64,000 nucleotides of DNA, taken from assembly GCA_949948735.1 (NCBI GenBank), contig CATLGV010000008.1, positions 1 through 64,000 of the forward strand, read 5' to 3'. Source of the stretch: an uncultured Lachnospiraceae bacterium (GTDB lineage Bacteria > Bacillota > Clostridia > Lachnospirales > Lachnospiraceae). Numbering within the stretch: position 1 is the stretch's first letter; each line of letters starts with the position of its first letter. This document shows positions 26,182-33,703 of this stretch, in pieces. A program made the translations under genes and the position numbers. A model generated the notes under the pieces. That model did not search any database and was not told the origin of the DNA. It saw only the letters and a list, made by a program, of their open reading frames with translations.

Positions 26182-27915
26182 ATGAAACGATTACTGGCTT
26201 ATTTAAAACCGCATAAATGGAGTATGCTTCTTGCCGCCGTTCTTGTGACCGCGCTGATTGGGGTGGAGCTGTACAAGCCCATTATCATCGGCGATGCGAT
26301 TGACGATTATATAAACGGTCTGGGCGGGCTTTCCGTGGAGGCGGCCTATTACGGTATCCTGCGGGCCGGCGTGCTGTATGCGCTGATGCTTTTGCTCGGC
26401 TTTGCGCTCAACGCGTCGCATACATGGATTCTGCAGCGGGTCGGGCAGTCGATTATCTATAGGATGCGCGAGGAGGTATTTACGCACATCCACAGTCTTT
26501 CGGTCAATTTTTTCAACACGCAGCCGGTGGGAAAGCTGGTGACCCGGGTGTCGAACGACACGGAGGCCGTCAACGAGCTGTTTTCACAGATTCTCGCCAA
26601 GCTGTTCAAAAATACCGTGAAGATTATCGGCTTTGCGGTGGTAATGCTCTCTATCAACGTGCGGTTGGCGCTGTATTCCTTTCTGATGCTTCCGCTCGTT
26701 ACCGCGCTGACGTTTTTCTTCCGGTATATGTCGAGGAAGGCGTACCGGATTACGCGCAACCGGATTACGGAGCTGAATACCTTTTTGTCGGAGCATATTT
26801 CCGGCATGAAGCTGATACAGATCTTTGCGCGGGAACAGGAAAAATACAAGGAATTTGAGGGCAAGAGCGAGCAGCTTTTCCGGGCGAACTGGCGGGAGGT
26901 GATGACCTTTGCCATTTTCCGCCCGTCGATTTATATGCTGTCCGTGATTGCGATGGTCATCGTGATCGGGCAGGGCAGCGCGTCCGTGCTGGACGGGACG
27001 GTCTCTCTGGGCACCCTGTTTGTGTTTATCAACTATATCAGCTCTTTCTTTGAGCCGATTCAGGAGCTGGCGGAGCAGTTTGGGACCCTGCAGTCCTCGC
27101 TTGCCTCCGCGGAGAAAATCTTCTCTATTCTGGACGAGCAGCCGGAGATTGTCAATCCCGAAAATCCGGTATCAGTGGAGATTACAGGGCGAATCGAATT
27201 CCGCCATGTGTGGTTCGCCTATGAGAAGGACGATTATATTTTAAAGGATGTGAGCTTCACCATTGCGCCGGGCGAAAAGGTGGCGTTTGTGGGCGCGACC
27301 GGCGCGGGGAAGTCTTCTATTTTGAATCTGATCGGACGTTATTACGATGTTCAGCGCGGTGAGATTTTAATCGACGGAGTCGATATCCGCCAAATCGATA
27401 AGGACGCGCTGCGGCGCGCCATCGGGCAGGTGCAGCAGGACGTATTTATCTTTACGGGGGACGTCAAGGGAAATATTTCTCTGGACAACGAAGCGATTTC
27501 GCGGGAGGAAATCGAGCGGGCGGCGCAGATTGTGAACGCGGATTCCTTCATCAAAAAGATGCCGGGCGGCTTTGACGAGCCGGTGACGGAGCGCGGCAGC
27601 ACGCTTTCCGCAGGGCAGCGCCAGCTGCTGTCCTTTGCGAGGACGCTTGCCTATCAGCCGACAATCCTCGTGCTGGACGAGGCGACGGCCAATATCGACA
27701 CGGAGACGGAGAGCCTGATTACGGCGGCGCTGGAAAAGCTGATGGAGGGGCGCACGACGATTATGGTGGCGCACCGCCTCTCGACAATCCAGCACGCGGA
27801 CAAAATCATCGTCATGCACAAGGGAGAAATCCGCGAGAGCGGCTCCCATCAGGAGCTGCTGCAGCTTGGCGGGATGTACAAGAAGCTGTATGATTTGCAG
27901 CTGGTGGAGGCGTGA
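26182..27915 (+). CDS. ABC exporter half-transporter, catalytic subunit
   Basis: 577 residues: membrane domain with six helices, then Walker A GATGAGKSS, signature LSAGQRQL (Ala in place of the second Gly), Walker B ILVLDEATANID with the catalytic Glu and H-loop MVAHRLS. This is the canonical-Walker B partner of the preceding protein, so together they make a heterodimeric exporter. TGGAGG is 12 bases before the ATG. The transcript likely ends at the hairpin near 28152-28173. Confidence 0.93.
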   Translation: MKRLLAYLKPHKWSMLLAAVLVTALIGVELYKPIIIGDAIDDYINGLGGLSVEAAYYGILRAGVLYALMLLLGFALNASHTWILQRVGQSIIYRMREEVFTHIHSLSVNFFNTQPVGKLVTRVSNDTEAVNELFSQILAKLFKNTVKIIGFAVVMLSINVRLALYSFLMLPLVTALTFFFRYMSRKAYRITRNRITELNTFLSEHISGMKLIQIFAREQEKYKEFEGKSEQLFRANWREVMTFAIFRPSIYMLSVIAMVIVIGQGSASVLDGTVSLGTLFVFINYISSFFEPIQELAEQFGTLQSSLASAEKIFSILDEQPEIVNPENPVSVEITGRIEFRHVWFAYEKDDYILKDVSFTIAPGEKVAFVGATGAGKSSILNLIGRYYDVQRGEILIDGVDIRQIDKDALRRAIGQVQQDVFIFTGDVKGNISLDNEAISREEIERAAQIVNADSFIKKMPGGFDEPVTERGSTLSAGQRQLLSFARTLAYQPTILVLDEATANIDTETESLITAALEKLMEGRTTIMVAHRLSTIQHADKIIVMHKGEIRESGSHQELLQLGGMYKKLYDLQLVEA

Positions 27916-28014
27916 CAGGCAGGGCGGGAATATGGATTTGCTGGTGAAGCAGATGGTAAAGTGGGAGGAAATTATATACTGCTTATGGTTAGGGGGGCAA
28001 AAGGTATATAGATG

Positions 28015-28055
28015 TTTTTGTCCGGCATATTGCACAAAATATTGCGCGCTACTGA
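28015..28055 (+). repeat. 41-bp direct repeat, copy B
   Basis: Partner of 24259-24299, 36 of 41 identical and with no gaps, 100 bases after the second ABC gene. The ABC pair is therefore bracketed by the repeats. Confidence 0.75.
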
Positions 28056-28119
28056 CTGCGGCAAATGGATTTACTAAATATTCCGGTAAAAATTATGCCG
28101 CCGACCGCAACCGCCCTCT

Positions 28120-28139
28120 ATGCGTCATCCGTGACGCAT
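28120..28139. other. 8-bp hairpin downstream of the ABC operon
   Basis: ATGCGTCA (28120-28127), loop TCCG, TGACGCAT (28132-28139). No T-run; 12 bases before the terminator. Confidence 0.5.
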
Positions 28140-28151
28140 TATGGGCTTTTC

Positions 28152-28173
28152 AAAAAGCTGGAACAGCTTTTTT
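28152..28173 (+). terminator. Terminator of the ABC exporter operon
   Basis: AAAAAGCTG (28152-28160), loop GAA, CAGCTTTTT (28164-28172) and a further T. Canonical and compact. Confidence 0.75.
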
Positions 28174-28324
28174 ACATTCATGTCCCGAAATTGCTGCTTA
28201 TCTAACGGAATATTAAGAAAATCTCATTTGCCTCCGCAATTGTAGCTTTACAACATTTTGTGCAATTTGCCTCATTGAAAAAGAAAGTATACCTTTTGAC
28301 ATCCTAACCTGTGTATAAAATTGC

Positions 28325-28351
28325 GGAGCAGAGAAATCTGCTCCTGTTTTA
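28325..28351 (+). terminator. GAAA-tetraloop hairpin terminator
   Basis: GGAGCAGA (28325-28332), tetraloop GAAA, TCTGCTCC (28337-28344), then TGTTTTAT. No gene directly precedes it; it lies in the AT-rich border zone before the AAA/HNH/DUF262 island. Confidence 0.65.
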
Positions 28352-28444
28352 TATTCTAATGAAAATTATTGCTTTTCCAATAAAAATACTACATAATAAA
28401 ATAGAAATACAAATGGTTCGCGACTGAATGCTGTACAATCCGGA

Positions 28445-28615
28445 ATGATGGGAGCAACAGATAAGGTGTATCTTGTTGAGGCGGGAAAGCAGGCACTAAC
28501 AAAGGATATTGTACGTATTTGGGATTATGCAGAGATAGATGCTTTTCCAGATACAAAACAGCAAAGTACTTTTTTTGAACAATGGATTAGCCCAAGGTCA
28601 CATGAATTCCCCTGA
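28445..28615 (+). CDS. Short ORF of uncertain status, possibly a gene fragment
   Basis: 56 codons from ATG, containing KVYLVEAGKQALTKDIV, RIWDYAEIDAFPD and FFEQWISP. It reads like protein rather than random sequence, but has no ribosome binding site and no recognised family. It sits in the AT-rich zone between the ABC operon and the AAA gene. Most likely the relic of a gene displaced by the island; a small functional protein cannot be excluded. Confidence 0.35.
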   Translation: MMGATDKVYLVEAGKQALTKDIVRIWDYAEIDAFPDTKQQSTFFEQWISPRSHEFP

Positions 28616-28693
28616 AAAACCTTGAGAGTGAACATGCAAAACAAACACATGTTATGATATTGGAAAACAGTGGAAGAACAGAAAGGAATTTTA

Positions 28694-29677
28694 TTGAATA
28701 ACCATATGAAAATAATGTTGCCAAAACAGGGAATCATCAAAAAGCAGAGCGTGGATTTATCGGAGGGCGTAACCATCCTGTACGGGTTGAACAACTGCGG
28801 GAAGACATCGGCCCTGAAGCTGTTGGATCAAGCTCTGGACAGGCAGTCGATGGAGATAATATTCGGACAGGCTTCGGATCAGGACGCATGCGGATTGTCG
28901 CTCTATATTCCAACGAACAGGGTTGTTGTCAGCACAAGATTTACGGAAATAAAGGCTTTTGAAGATGCAGAAGGCATTATTGCGTATAAGCGGAGCTCCT
29001 ATGCGGAATATGATCTTCATTTAAAGGGGCTTCGCGATTATCTGCTGCAATCGGCTCTTGTCAGAGCGTTTATCCAAAAGGCGGTTGGGCGGATCTTTCA
29101 TATCGGCCTGTCCGGTTTTGATGTCCGGTACAGCGACGGTATTGAGAATATTATCAACATTTATATCAATATTTTATGGATACTGACCTGGGATATGAAG
29201 CTTGAAAGAATTAGCGAAAAGGAGCTTTGGGAACGAATCAAAGGTACGCGGGCATACATATTAATCGATGAGATAGAGATGTTTCTGCATGTAAGTGTGC
29301 AGAGCGATCTGATTGAGAGCCTGGCGCAGGACTTTCCGTCATGCAGCTTTGTACTTTCGACGCACTCGCCCCTGCTGCTTACAAGATATCGGGATTCAAA
29401 TGTCTTTCATTTGGAGAACGGAGTATTGAGACCGATTTGTGACGATTTGTATTTTAAGGATTTGGATGTCATTTATGAGAGCTACTTTCAGGTTAAGGAA
29501 TTTCCGGCGAAGGTGGGAGAGGATATCCGTTATCTGGGGGATGTCCTGCTTGGCGAGCAGGCACCGGATAAGAGCCGGATAGAGGAGGCTGCAGCCCGTA
29601 TGCACGCGCAGTACCCTAATTTATACCGTAAATATATTAACCTGATTACCAAAGCAAAGGACAGAGCCGGCCTATGA
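28694..29677 (+). CDS. AAA ATPase of a candidate defence module
   Basis: 327 residues from a TTG start preceded by AAAGGA; ATG at 28706 and GTG at 28670 are alternatives. SMC/ABC-like ATPase: Walker A GLNNCGKTSAL near residues 31-41, Walker B AYILIDEIEMFLH and the downstream LSTHSPLLL switch, the pattern of AAA_15/AAA_21 proteins used in OLD, RloC and Septu PtuA systems. It is small, lacking a long coiled-coil and a TOPRIM domain, and the sequence LSEGVTILYGLNNCGKT is typical of this class. The stop overlaps the start of the HNH gene (ATGA), so the ATPase and nuclease are made together. Probably senses a threat and licenses the nuclease. Confidence 0.85.
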   Translation: MNNHMKIMLPKQGIIKKQSVDLSEGVTILYGLNNCGKTSALKLLDQALDRQSMEIIFGQASDQDACGLSLYIPTNRVVVSTRFTEIKAFEDAEGIIAYKRSSYAEYDLHLKGLRDYLLQSALVRAFIQKAVGRIFHIGLSGFDVRYSDGIENIINIYINILWILTWDMKLERISEKELWERIKGTRAYILIDEIEMFLHVSVQSDLIESLAQDFPSCSFVLSTHSPLLLTRYRDSNVFHLENGVLRPICDDLYFKDLDVIYESYFQVKEFPAKVGEDIRYLGDVLLGEQAPDKSRIEEAAARMHAQYPNLYRKYINLITKAKDRAGL

Positions 29678-30321
29678 ATTATATCGCACGGGAGAAGAAG
29701 AAGCCAGAGGGCTTAAGCGAAACAGACAGACAATTTAAAGAAAAAATCAAAGGGAAGACGCCAGCGCAGGCATATCGGTTTTTCAAAAGGCACCAGAGCG
29801 TTTATCAGTACAATACAGCGGAGACGAAGGAAGTGTTTGCCCGGATGAATCACAAGCGCTGCTCTTTTTGCACGAAGTGGATTTCGGAATTTAATACAGA
29901 GATGACGATTGAGCACATAGAGACCAAAAGCAGCTGTCCGCGGAAAATATTTCAATGGGACAATCTGCTTTGCAGCTGCCGCACCTGTAATACCAAGCGT
30001 GGTCGGAAAGAGTACAAGGCGGACGCCTATCTGGATCCTTCCAGCATTAAGGATATTGAACGGTATTTTTGTTTTCATACGGACGGAACAATATCGGTAA
30101 GCAAAGCGCTTTCTCAGGCAGAGGCCGATAAGGCAAAATATATGATACGATTGTATCGGCTTGACCGGGACGAATTAAATGCGGAGCGGAGAGAATTTTT
30201 TAACAGCCTGCTGGATGACGAGCTGTTTGAAATACTGAAGAGGAGAAGCCGGGACGCGCAGGATATACATTATTTGTCGGTTTTTACATATTATAAGAGG
30301 AGAACGGAGAATGGAAAATAA
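29674..30321 (+). CDS. HNH endonuclease of the candidate defence module
   Basis: 215 residues. An HNH (McrA-like) nuclease with zinc-holding cysteines: CSFCTKW, catalytic region MTIEHIETKS, then DNLLCSCRTCNTKRGRKEY. This is the layout of the TIGR02646/PtuB-like HNH proteins partnered with AAA ATPases. The C-terminal 80 residues are charged and helical, maybe for contacts with the ATPase. Overlaps the ATPase gene by four bases and the DUF262 gene by eleven. Confidence 0.88.
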   Translation: MNYIAREKKKPEGLSETDRQFKEKIKGKTPAQAYRFFKRHQSVYQYNTAETKEVFARMNHKRCSFCTKWISEFNTEMTIEHIETKSSCPRKIFQWDNLLCSCRTCNTKRGRKEYKADAYLDPSSIKDIERYFCFHTDGTISVSKALSQAEADKAKYMIRLYRLDRDELNAERREFFNSLLDDELFEILKRRSRDAQDIHYLSVFTYYKRRTENGK

Positions 30322-31657
30322 GGAGTTTATATTGGATCAGACAACCATAAAAAGCCTGTTGACGGCGTATAAGCTGAAAATCCCTGATTTCCAGAGAAGC
30401 TTTGTGTGGAAGAAGGCGAAAAAGTCTCAGCTGTTGGAATCCCTGTTCAGGGGGTTCCCGATTGGCGCGATCACGCTCTACGAGGATGACGGCGCATACT
30501 ATATTATCGACGGCCTGCAGCGAATCAATACCTTAAAGCAGTATTTGACCAGCCCCAAAGAGGTCATAGGGTTTAACGAGTTTTATGAAAAGGTGCAGGA
30601 AAAAATCGAGGATTTTTTAGAAAAAAACAATATAAAGACAGATATACGGATGCTGAAGCGGTGCATTAAGCTGTGGTATAACGGGCTTGGCAGTCTGTAC
30701 GAATATGAGCGTGTCAGCGTGCTGCACCGCGCGATAAAGGAAAACGGTCCCGCGGTTTTTGACAAGCTTGGTGATTTGCTGCTGATAGAGGAATTAAGGG
30801 ATATTTTGAAGAGCAAAATCGAAATATCCCATGATGCGATAGCGATTATCATTTATAAGGGCGACAAGGAGGATCTGCCGGCCTTATTTAAGAATATCAA
30901 TACCGGGAGCGTAGCGCTGTCGCAGTATGAAATCCTGCAGTCGGTTTGGACGGATTATTGTCTGGACAAGGATGCGGTTTATGAGGAGTACGAGGCGTTT
31001 TGCCAGGAGCTGGAGCTGATTCGGGATGAGTATGAGATTAATGCGGTCAAGGAGGACGGGGCATTTGATATTTTCAAGAATATCATTGGCCTGAATCACC
31101 GGATTTGCTGTATTGAAAATTGTGACTGGCTGTTCCGGTTTAACGCGTTTAAGCGGCTTCCACAGCCGGATAACGGGGAAGAAGACGAGACGGAGGGCGC
31201 GGTAAAATATTACGACAACGACACGATAGGCTTCGAGATATATTCCACGCTTCTGTGCCATTCCTCCAATAAGATTGTCAAGGCGATTGACAGCGTTTTT
31301 AAGGAGCATCCGGGTCAGGACGATCAAATCAACGCGTTTATCGCCGCGTTAAACGGGATTATTATGGAGGCGGTCGAGACGGCGATTGAGTGCATTGAGG
31401 AGGCTTGTGTGGATGAAGAATACGCGATTGTAAGTAAATATCACTCGCTCTATATTCTCGCAGGGGTTGTTTTCTCACGTTATATTATTGACGTACAGAC
31501 GCTCGAAATCACAGAAACAGATCTCAATGAGGAAATCCTTGATTTGTGCATGGATCTGGCGCGGCATGAACGGGAAAAATGGTTTGTGGATGAGAAACGT
31601 CAACTGAGCTTTTTTATTGAAAAGATTAACGAGCTTGCGGCATTGCAGGAGGATTGA
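30311..31657 (+). CDS. DUF262 protein (GmrSD N-domain-like)
   Basis: 448 residues. N-terminal DUF262 features: IPDFQRSFVWKKAKKSQLLE, FPIGAITLYED and the ParB/Srx-like catalytic signature IIDGLQRINTL, then the helical stretch LFKNINTGSVALSQYEILQ characteristic of the family. DUF262 is the nucleotide-hydrolysing half of GmrSD and BrxU and occurs in phosphorothioation-sensing SspE. The usual fused DUF1524 HNH domain is missing; an HNH nuclease is instead encoded by the overlapping upstream gene. GGAG lies in the end of the HNH gene before the ATG. Role inferred: nucleotide-controlled regulator or sensor for the nuclease. Confidence 0.9.
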   Translation: MENKEFILDQTTIKSLLTAYKLKIPDFQRSFVWKKAKKSQLLESLFRGFPIGAITLYEDDGAYYIIDGLQRINTLKQYLTSPKEVIGFNEFYEKVQEKIEDFLEKNNIKTDIRMLKRCIKLWYNGLGSLYEYERVSVLHRAIKENGPAVFDKLGDLLLIEELRDILKSKIEISHDAIAIIIYKGDKEDLPALFKNINTGSVALSQYEILQSVWTDYCLDKDAVYEEYEAFCQELELIRDEYEINAVKEDGAFDIFKNIIGLNHRICCIENCDWLFRFNAFKRLPQPDNGEEDETEGAVKYYDNDTIGFEIYSTLLCHSSNKIVKAIDSVFKEHPGQDDQINAFIAALNGIIMEAVETAIECIEEACVDEEYAIVSKYHSLYILAGVVFSRYIIDVQTLEITETDLNEEILDLCMDLARHEREKWFVDEKRQLSFFIEKINELAALQED

Positions 31658-31669
31658 GAAGAGAAAGGC

Positions 31670-32116
31670 ATGGATACAAATATGAGAGTCTTGGTGAGCG
31701 CCTGTCTTATGGGAGAAAACTGTAAATACAACGGAAAGAGCAATAAAAACGACGCAGTTATCGACTTCCTCAAGGATAAGGAGGTTGTGCGCATCTGCCC
31801 GGAGCTGCTGGCGGGAATGCCGGTGCCGCGTCCCTGCGCGGAGCTTGTGGATGGCGTTGTGACGGATGAAAACGGACAAAACGTCGATGCGGCGTACCGA
31901 AGGGCGGTGGAGCTTGCGCTGGCGGGTATCTGCCCGGAGGCGTTCGACCTTGTAATCCTTCAGTCAAGAAGCCCGACCTGCGGAGTCAATCAAGTCTACG
32001 ACGGCAGCTTTACCGGAAGTCTGACGCCCGGACAGGGCCTGTTTGCCAGGGCGCTTATGGAACGGGGCTGTAAGGTCGTGGACGCGGAGGAAATCGTTTC
32101 GCAGGCAAAAAGATAA
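31670..32116 (+). CDS. DUF523 / TudS-like desulfidase
   Basis: 148 residues. Cysteines placed as in DUF523 proteins: VSACLMGENCKYNG, RICPELLAGMPVPRPCAE and LQSRSPTCGVNQVYDG. Some members (TudS) hold a [4Fe-4S] cluster and remove sulfur from thiouracil. Ser-Pro-Thr-Cys-Gly with the two N-terminal cysteines gives the expected cluster ligands. GAGAAGAG lies six bases before the ATG. Only 12 bases separate it from the DUF262 stop, so it may be read from the same transcript, but it looks like chromosomal housekeeping. Substrate not determined. Confidence 0.88.
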   Translation: MDTNMRVLVSACLMGENCKYNGKSNKNDAVIDFLKDKEVVRICPELLAGMPVPRPCAELVDGVVTDENGQNVDAAYRRAVELALAGICPEAFDLVILQSRSPTCGVNQVYDGSFTGSLTPGQGLFARALMERGCKVVDAEEIVSQAKR

Positions 32117-32131
32117 CTCATGCATGCGCTC

Positions 32132-32161
32132 TTGTCAATAACGGGCCCGATATGGTAAAAT
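32132..32161 (+). promoter_or_regulatory. Promoter of the phosphohexomutase gene
   Basis: TTGTCA (32132-32137), 18-base spacer, TAAAAT (32156-32161). Confidence 0.6.
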
Positions 32162-32200
32162 ACACCATATAAACGCGGTTTGAAATGGAGGAGAGGGTAC

Positions 32201-33703
32201 ATGGAAAGTATTATGAAGCTTCAGAACGGGAGCGACGTCCGCGGGATTGCCTGCGAGGGCGTTGAGGGAGAGACGGTCAATCTCACGGAGGATGCCGGAA
32301 ACCGGATCGGCGGGGCGTTCGCCAGATGGCTTGCGGCCAAAAAGGGCAAGGCAGTGCAGGCGCTGAGAATCGGCATCGGACATGATTCGCGCATCACGGC
32401 GGACAGTCTCTTTGCGGCAGCGGCCAAGGGCATTGCGGCAGCGGGCGCGCGCGTATACGACTGCGGTCTGGTGTCCACGCCGTCTATGTTTATGACAACC
32501 GTCTTTGACGAATTTCAATTTGACGGGGCCGTAATGATTACAGCCAGTCATCTGCCGTTTAACAGAAACGGCTACAAATTTTTCGACCGGGACGGCGGAC
32601 TTGAGCACGACGACATTACTGCGATTCTGGAAACTGCGTCCACGCTTGCGCCGGCGCAGGCGGATCTGGCATCGGTGGAAAAAGTTGATTCCATTTCGGT
32701 ATATTGCGGATTTCTGCGGGATAAGATAAAGAAGAGCATTCAGGCGGCGGATTATGACAGGCCGCTTGCGGGACTGCATATCGTTGTGGACACCGGTAAC
32801 GGTGCGGGCGGTTTTTTTGTGGAAAAGGTGCTTGATCCGTTGGGCGCGGATACCTCGGGCAGCCAGTTTTTGGAGCCGGACGGCAGATTTCCCAATCATA
32901 TCCCGAATCCGGAGAATAAGCAGGCAATGGAGTCCATCCGCCAGGCGGTGCTGAACAACAAGGCGGATCTGGGCATTATTTTTGATACGGATGTGGACAG
33001 GATGTCGGCGGTGCTCCCCAACGGGGATGAGGTCAACCGGGATGCGATTATCGCGATGATGACGGCGATTGTGTCGGAGGATTACCCCGGCGGGACGATT
33101 GTCACCGACTCTGTGACGAGCGACCGCCTGACGCGGTTTATCGAGAGCATCGGCATGAAGCATCACCGGTATATGCGCGGCTACAAGAATGTGATTAACG
33201 AGTCGATTCGGCTCAATAATGCGGGAATCGTATCGCCGCTGGCGATAGAGACCTCCGGGCACGGCGCGTTAAGCGAGAATTATTTCCTCGACGACGGCGC
33301 TTATATGGCGGTGAAGCTGTTGATCGCGCTTGCCAGGGCGGCGCGGGAGAACAAGCCGCTTTCCAGCTTTATTGACAAGCTGGAGAAGGGCTTTGAGGAG
33401 AGAGAGTACCGCTTTAAGATTGACTGTGAGGATTTTAAGGCCTATGGCAAAAAGGCCCTCGATGCCTTTGAGGAGCGCGCGCGCGCAAAGGGCTATGATA
33501 TTGCGCCGAACTCCTACGAAGGAATCCGTATCAGCTTTGATACCGATGAGATGAAGGGCTGGCTGCTGCTGCGCATGTCCCTGCACGACCCGCAGATGCC
33601 GTTGAATATAGAAGGCGTGCGGGAAGGAGACTGTGACCGGCTGTTTGAGACGGTGCTTGCGCTGCTGGAGGGCTTTGATCAGCTGGTGATTCCGGCAAAG
33701 TAG
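32201..33703 (+). CDS. Alpha-D-phosphohexomutase (PGM/PMM family)
   Basis: 500 residues, four-domain phosphohexomutase. Active-site serine loop TASHLPFNRNGYKFF, magnesium loop DTDVDRMSAV (consensus DGDGDR changed to DTDVDR), sugar-binding loop ETSGHGAL, and the C-terminal phosphate loop region YEGIRISFD. It interconverts 1- and 6-phosphates of glucose or mannose; the loop changes leave the preferred sugar open. Start at 32201 chosen for GGAGGAGAGG upstream; the frame opens 21 bases earlier without one. Confidence 0.88.
   Translation: MESIMKLQNGSDVRGIACEGVEGETVNLTEDAGNRIGGAFARWLAAKKGKAVQALRIGIGHDSRITADSLFAAAAKGIAAAGARVYDCGLVSTPSMFMTTVFDEFQFDGAVMITASHLPFNRNGYKFFDRDGGLEHDDITAILETASTLAPAQADLASVEKVDSISVYCGFLRDKIKKSIQAADYDRPLAGLHIVVDTGNGAGGFFVEKVLDPLGADTSGSQFLEPDGRFPNHIPNPENKQAMESIRQAVLNNKADLGIIFDTDVDRMSAVLPNGDEVNRDAIIAMMTAIVSEDYPGGTIVTDSVTSDRLTRFIESIGMKHHRYMRGYKNVINESIRLNNAGIVSPLAIETSGHGALSENYFLDDGAYMAVKLLIALARAARENKPLSSFIDKLEKGFEEREYRFKIDCEDFKAYGKKALDAFEERARAKGYDIAPNSYEGIRISFDTDEMKGWLLLRMSLHDPQMPLNIEGVREGDCDRLFETVLALLEGFDQLVIPAK

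Follow-up and report, generated by a model that had tools for sequence, protein, structure and literature searches.

Do three overlapping genes for a short ATPase, an HNH nuclease, and a DUF262 protein in an uncultured Lachnospiraceae bacterium form a defense module of their own, or are they an ordinary Septu pair with a neighbor? The genes lie in the first 64,000 nucleotides of contig CATLGV010000008.1 (assembly GCA_949948735.1, forward strand), a stretch called the window here. A preliminary description, made from the sequence alone, treated them as one unit and as a candidate new defense system. We call them A, B, and C.

28694..29677, plus strand: gene A, short PtuA-type ABC/AAA ATPase, 327 amino acids from the TTG at 28694
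29674..30321, plus strand: gene B, PtuB-type HNH nuclease, 215 amino acids (PADLOC PtuB, TIGR02646, solved PtuB)
30311..31657, plus strand: gene C, DUF262 (GmrSD_N) protein with an alpha-helical C-terminal part, 448 amino acids (PF03235)

The three open reading frames (ORFs) were confirmed on the plus strand; A and B share 4 bases, and B and C share 11. The true start of A is unsure; GTG at 28670 would give 335 amino acids and ATG at 28706 would give 323, and the latter aligns with the start of the nearest homologue. A matches AAA_21/AAA_15 of Pfam and the PADLOC PtuA profile (2.6e-27). Numbered from 28694, it has Walker A (G31-N33-GKT38), signature (S147-D-G149), Walker B (I191-D-E193), and H-loop (H224) motifs, and these columns are intact and invariant across relatives. 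In a fold comparison, ranks 1 to 20 were all PtuA, with Ec83 PtuA as the top match. The ATPase is unusually short, as had been noticed, and the long insertion of Septu and retron PtuA is absent from it. B matches PADLOC PtuB (3.3e-25) and NCBIfam TIGR02646 (62.6 bits, cut-off 52.15), and its listed PADLOC matches (25 of 52) are PtuB or HNH_I-A. Its motif residues E80-H81, N97, the cysteine pairs C63/C66 and C102/C105, and N106 are invariant in 12 sequences (L041, with a short frame, and L043 left out), and the H81-N97 spacing equals that of H75-N91 in PtuB of Septu EcB88. Solved PtuA and PtuB structures are sequence matches of A and B. Thus, the profile matches bear out the view that these two genes follow the Septu plan of ATPase plus HNH nuclease.

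C matches PF03235 at 5.6e-26. The GmrSD motifs QR (Q28-R29), DGxQR (as DGLQR, D67-G-L-Q-R71), and FxxxN (F193-xxx-N197) are invariant in 13 sequences. It was correctly described as a DUF262 protein without the fused DUF1524 domain, which Pfam, read up to E 1, found in none of the three proteins. The alignment of the C model with BrxU stops at residue 416 of 587, short of the BrxU C-terminal end. A C-terminal domain of about 110 amino acids, present at eight of 13 loci and absent from five, has no Pfam match and one weak PHROG match (0.0053). The same domain, again without a Pfam name, recurs at the end of a protein predicted to have membrane helices at another locus (L054, 9176-9931). This protein adjoins methylase-like genes of what seems to be a restriction-modification locus.

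A, B, and C are one conserved three-gene unit and not a chance arrangement, because near-full-length relatives of C are preceded by A and B, arranged as in the window. Among 60 genomes (its own and relatives), C found matches in 22, mostly to the DUF262 core only. Besides its own genome there were seven near-full-length homologues (56-76% identity), and all seven carry A and B upstream in the order A-B-C. At 11 loci with partial C matches (L010-L020), neither A nor B was seen within the available stretch. One genome (G015) retains a remnant, the N-terminus of A joined in sequence to the C-terminus of C. The genome_contigs collection returned 14 loci with C, 13 of them near relatives (eight being records also found in the 60-genome or family searches), and A and B were present at 12 of the 13. 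At one of these 12 (L041) the B frame stops early, at 172 amino acids; at the exception (L043) C is cut by the contig end, with the last 55 amino acids of B and no A. Eleven of the 13 are labeled Lachnospiraceae, one is an Oscillospiraceae bin, and one is a 'Mucispirillum' bin (L043). Across relatives the genes overlap or stand close. When the 13 loci are compared pair by pair, the distances for A, B, and C show correlations of 0.85-0.90 with one another, not corrected for the species tree. The preliminary description had let its proposal depend on the trio being kept together in other genomes, and the relatives do keep A-B-C.

In wider samples searched with C, three of 398 phylum genomes matched at E<=1e-20 (its own and two with partial DUF262 proteins), and six of 397 family genomes at E<=1e-15, comprising two near-full homologues (its own and G714), two matches to the C-terminal domain only, and two partial DUF262 proteins. 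In plasmids (28 records, no match covering 80%), phages (five records), and viral_contigs (eight loci), C had partial matches but no near-full homologue. Searches of viral_contigs with A and B confirmed no relatives. B gave 11 weak matches in plasmids, and a DUF262 product was annotated in none of five of these 11 neighborhoods and one of two phage records, the plasmid gene table being incomplete. The search of the own genome with C gave one match and hence no second trio copy, and the NsnA-like (contig C7) and NsnB-like (contig C30) matches there are separate genes. The former locus (L030, 1297-3944) has another DUF262 gene (NsnA profile, 4.2e-37) after a small gene and a C5-methylase-like gene, and by eye looks like a separate defense operon. 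The latter (L029, 6751-7758) is an NsnB-like AAA_15 ATPase (1.1e-25 to NsnB) near the contig end, beyond which partner genes on one side, if any, would lie.

That the ATPase/HNH pair always occurs without DUF262 had been named as a point that would speak against the proposal. With B, three of 299 family genomes matched: the window and G714, both with C, and G574, a bare Septu pair. With TIGR02646 (E<=1e-8), the phylum sample of 398 genomes gave five matches, namely the window and four ATPase+HNH pairs, one of them interrupted (G088). Together with G574, five bare Septu pairs were thus sampled. In the next ORF on either side of these, Pfam found GmrSD_N in none of 10 proteins. Pfam was run because our home-made DUF262 profile had little power, scoring true DUF262 genes at 0.006 (L030) and 3.3e-17 (L070); this profile found nothing below E 0.3 in the five pairs and gave E 0.032 on one ORF of L102. 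In a tree of 17 rows (nine trio rows of the 13 loci and eight pair rows, one of them retron-derived), the trio rows form a single branch, supported at 100/100 for A and at 99/99 for B, the latter with long branches flagged. Trio loci L034, L037, L039, and L044, the interrupted G088, and the Pantoea and E. coli plasmid matches (L103, L105) were left out. Since carrying C was the criterion for a trio row, the tree asks only whether these rows cluster. In a small sample mostly chosen by C, we saw no intact copy of the A/B branch without C, and the only search able to show such copies, that led by B, gave two branch members, both with C.

The trio was also described as an inserted cassette, and its lower GC content and changing neighborhoods support a mobile cassette. 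Its GC content is 45.5%, against 52.0% for the window, and it lies below that of the rest of the locus at 12 of 12 loci, narrowly at L038 (31.2 against 32.6%). With flanks read by eye, the trio relatives occupy at least seven different neighborhoods, L040 and L042 not being counted for too little clear flank.

Window, L032: ABC exporter and DUF523-type gene
L033, L039, L044: dipeptidase-like gene downstream
L034, L035: AAA-like gene downstream
L036, L037, L038, L041: other genes

The gene first described as a housekeeping gene directly after the trio does begin close behind it, 12 bases past C; it is a DUF523-type/2-thiouracil desulfurase gene, DUF523 being the name we take to apply. The site is common to the window and G019, between which the trio proteins are 69-76% identical and the flanking proteins, among the matches listed, 85-94% except for one (63%). 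At the trio flank, G019 (L021, 8434-10170) has its second ABC exporter gene split into two ORFs, whereas that gene is intact in the window. Of 38 genus genomes, 10 (the own genome among them) have a match to the downstream gene; only G019 shares the neighborhood, so that no empty site came to light.

What such a module might do is suggested by described relatives. PtuAB of retron Eco7 alone arrests growth and depletes tRNA-Tyr, and it is neutralised by the reverse transcriptase plus msr-msd (PMC11555353); PtuAB is thus known to accept a separate controller. Septu EcB88 cleaves the variable loop of tRNA-Tyr, and its immunity needs K43/D316 of PtuA and H75/N91 of PtuB (PMC13096335). For Septu of E. 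coli ATCC25922, PMC11555353 relates a reported action on DNA. SspE hydrolyses guanosine triphosphate (GTP) once it has recognised a DNA mark, and this licenses the nuclease; the arginine of DGQQR is required for GTP hydrolysis and nicking (PMC13251355). Taken together, these facts lead us to propose C as the sensor and switch and A-B as the effector.

We therefore favor, with some reserve, a mobile three-protein anti-invader module in which a PtuAB-type effector is joined to a DUF262 sensor/switch. A and B would make up a Septu/retron-type effector in which the ABC-type ATPase assembles and controls the HNH nuclease. C would be a GmrSD-family protein that keeps the half hydrolysing nucleoside triphosphates (NTPs) and a helical part, without the nuclease domain, and would most likely sense a feature of invading nucleic acid. 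We infer a physical coupling of C to A-B, such that NTP hydrolysis would alter the shape of C and release or activate the A-B complex. B may then cut nucleic acid, either invader DNA or host tRNA, and the phage genome would be destroyed or the infected cell would stop growing. A bolder version, which we put forward tentatively and hold rather less probable than the module itself, is a chimera: a type IV-restriction sensor would read a mark or structure of invader DNA by NTP hydrolysis, and a PtuAB effector linked to it would halt the cell by cutting tRNA or DNA. On this view PtuAB would be a general effector that has been attached in evolution to different sensors, multicopy single-stranded DNA (msDNA) in retrons and DUF262 in the trio, and the optional C-terminal domain of about 110 amino acids would set specificity.

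Among the alternatives, the most probable, though still somewhat unlikely, is a toxin-antitoxin-like arrangement in which C keeps A-B silent and is itself disturbed by phages, with no DNA recognition. It overlaps the sensor/switch module in the gating by C. It agrees with the toxicity of Eco7 PtuAB without reverse transcriptase and msr-msd (PMC11555353), and the variable C-terminal domain (eight of 13 loci, absent from five) is as expected of a changing trigger part; however, the invariant NTPase motifs of C suggest an active switch rather than a passive lid. A split type IV restriction enzyme is a little less credible and is partly a special case of the sensor/switch module: C would recognise modified phage DNA, B would supply the missing DUF1524 nuclease in trans, and A would merely load or power B. 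The GmrSD_N motifs kept in C, the alignment with BrxU to residue 416 of 587, the HNH nature of B (the same broad class as DUF1524), and the reported DNA action of the ATCC25922 Septu are consistent with it; but B groups with PtuB, and PtuAB of retron Eco7 and Septu EcB88 cuts tRNA-Tyr. It is improbable that A-B act alone as an ordinary Septu pair with C independent or dispensable, for although PADLOC profiles call A PtuA and B PtuB, and the five sampled bare pairs (one interrupted) have no DUF262 gene as adjacent ORF, C stands in every intact branch copy seen (at loci mostly found by C), the trio genes are overlapping or closely spaced, A and B each branch separately from the other pairs, and A is without the long insertion of Septu/retron PtuA.

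Upstream of A, the region has the following features.

27987..28309: palindromic dispersed repeat of about 323 bp in the AT-rich spacer before A, not part of the system
28053-28239, minus strand: Rfam TwoAYGGAY, 89.2 bits (cut-off 43), covering the middle of the repeat
28445-28612: 56-amino-acid ORF, perhaps a gene fragment, lying between repeat and trio
28629..28658, plus strand: promoter-like site upstream of A, TGAACA, 18 nucleotides, TATGAT, with TG (consensus match)

The preliminary description had an AT-rich spacer with a gene fragment here. The spacer stands, but it is largely the repeat, an imperfect palindrome (arms about 27987-28088 and 28203-28309), followed by the 56-amino-acid ORF, which has no Pfam match and no plasmid match. 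The repeat occurs at ten separate places in its own genome, among 18 matches listed, with many further copies in G019 and G009 and a single partial match in G017; at E<=1e-5 there was none in the remaining 34 of the 38 genus genomes, with at most 19 candidates scored in each. In G019 the spacer at this site is short and lacks the repeat. TwoAYGGAY, listed by Rfam as a cis-regulatory RNA, thus sits inside a dispersed palindromic repeat. It also covers five further repeat copies in four other scanned loci, and here it looks like part of a mobile element resembling a miniature inverted-repeat transposable element rather than a fixed-gene leader. As for the promoter-like site, the sequence ACATGTTATGATA around its -10 recurs upstream of A in the nearest relative, G019; such consensus sites numbered 15 in the region, against 8.4 expected in shuffles, and the consensus match with conservation in one relative is suggestive, not proof.

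PtuAB is known alone, as Septu, and under the control of a reverse transcriptase and msDNA, as retron type I-A. A conserved branch with a DUF262 protein in the controller's place would show that PtuAB is exchangeable between sensors. The role of DUF262 proteins without DUF1524 (Menshen, ptuXYZ, and the trio) would also become testable in one small operon, whose effector has solved relatives.

Compared with known systems, the trio shares with Septu an ATPase adjoining an HNH nuclease and matches to PtuA/PtuB profiles and solved structures. It differs in the third gene, present in every intact branch copy seen (mostly found by C), in an ATPase of 323-327 amino acids without the long insertion, against 384-445 in the four intact bare pairs, and in the separate branch of A and B. 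Since the copies seen all have the third gene, plain Septu does not describe the trio in full and was rejected in that sense. Going by the PADLOC profile matches of A and B, automatic annotation would probably label the locus plain Septu and overlook C. Another larger PtuAB setting exists on a Rhizobium rhizogenes plasmid (L101, 2569-4546), where a PtuAB-like pair lies between a helicase gene and a DUF1156 gene, the ATP-binding protein adjoining the latter. With retron type I-A (Ec78/Eco7, Ec83), the trio has in common a PtuAB effector under a further component, and the fold of A is nearest Ec83 PtuA; but a DUF262 protein stands where the retron has reverse transcriptase. Retron identity was rejected, since Pfam showed no reverse transcriptase in the eight flanking proteins scanned and Rfam, run over 27500-32500, no retron RNA, although Rfam may not contain every retron RNA.

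C shares the QR, DGxQR, and FxxxN motifs with GmrSD, BrxU, SspE, and DndI, and its helical part is weakly similar to BrxU and DndI; unlike these, it lacks the DUF1524 nuclease, and ATPase and nuclease are separate. Menshen (NsnA-NsnB-NsnC) likewise has a DUF262 protein, an SMC-like ATPase, and a third protein; its DUF262 gene is linked to a predicted OLD nuclease (review PMC10952713). On viral contig L070, NsnA, NsnB, and NsnC stand side by side, and there the ATPase carries DUF3696 and the third protein is NsnC. The match of C to NsnA is partial, at 2.1e-22 against 1.1e-102 for L070. A matches the NsnB profile in only two pieces (E 0.0013 and 0.019), and this profile matched in 14 of 14 control genomes; one NsnC profile, of several in PADLOC, matched nothing at the trio. 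With B being PtuB/HNH_I-A besides, Menshen proper was rejected. The NsnC search matched one of 249 phylum genomes, and at one locus (L078, 6982-9064) an NsnB-NsnC pair stands with no DUF262 gene in the stretch examined, that is, Menshen parts without NsnA. For PADLOC PDC-M55, the PDC-M55B profile (PDLC04708) had no match in the own genome or in any control genome.

A similar plan is that of ptuXYZ (PMC11980606), in which a DUF262 protein lacking DUF1524, a PtuA-like ATPase, and a nuclease are three distinct proteins. Its nuclease is an RNase of the PIN-like/YoeB type, and its gene order starts with DUF262, whereas the trio has an HNH PtuB (TIGR02646 above cut-off) and its DUF262 gene last. The early statement that no described system uses all three parts as separate proteins was thus too strong as a claim to a new plan, given ptuXYZ and Menshen. 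The combination of DUF262, PtuA, and HNH PtuB was not found in searches of open-access papers, with most subscription papers and the original Septu and Menshen papers lying outside them. The trio is a variant of a known plan and not a wholly new kind of system; what is unusual is the HNH PtuB as effector beside a DUF262 protein and a PtuA-type ATPase.
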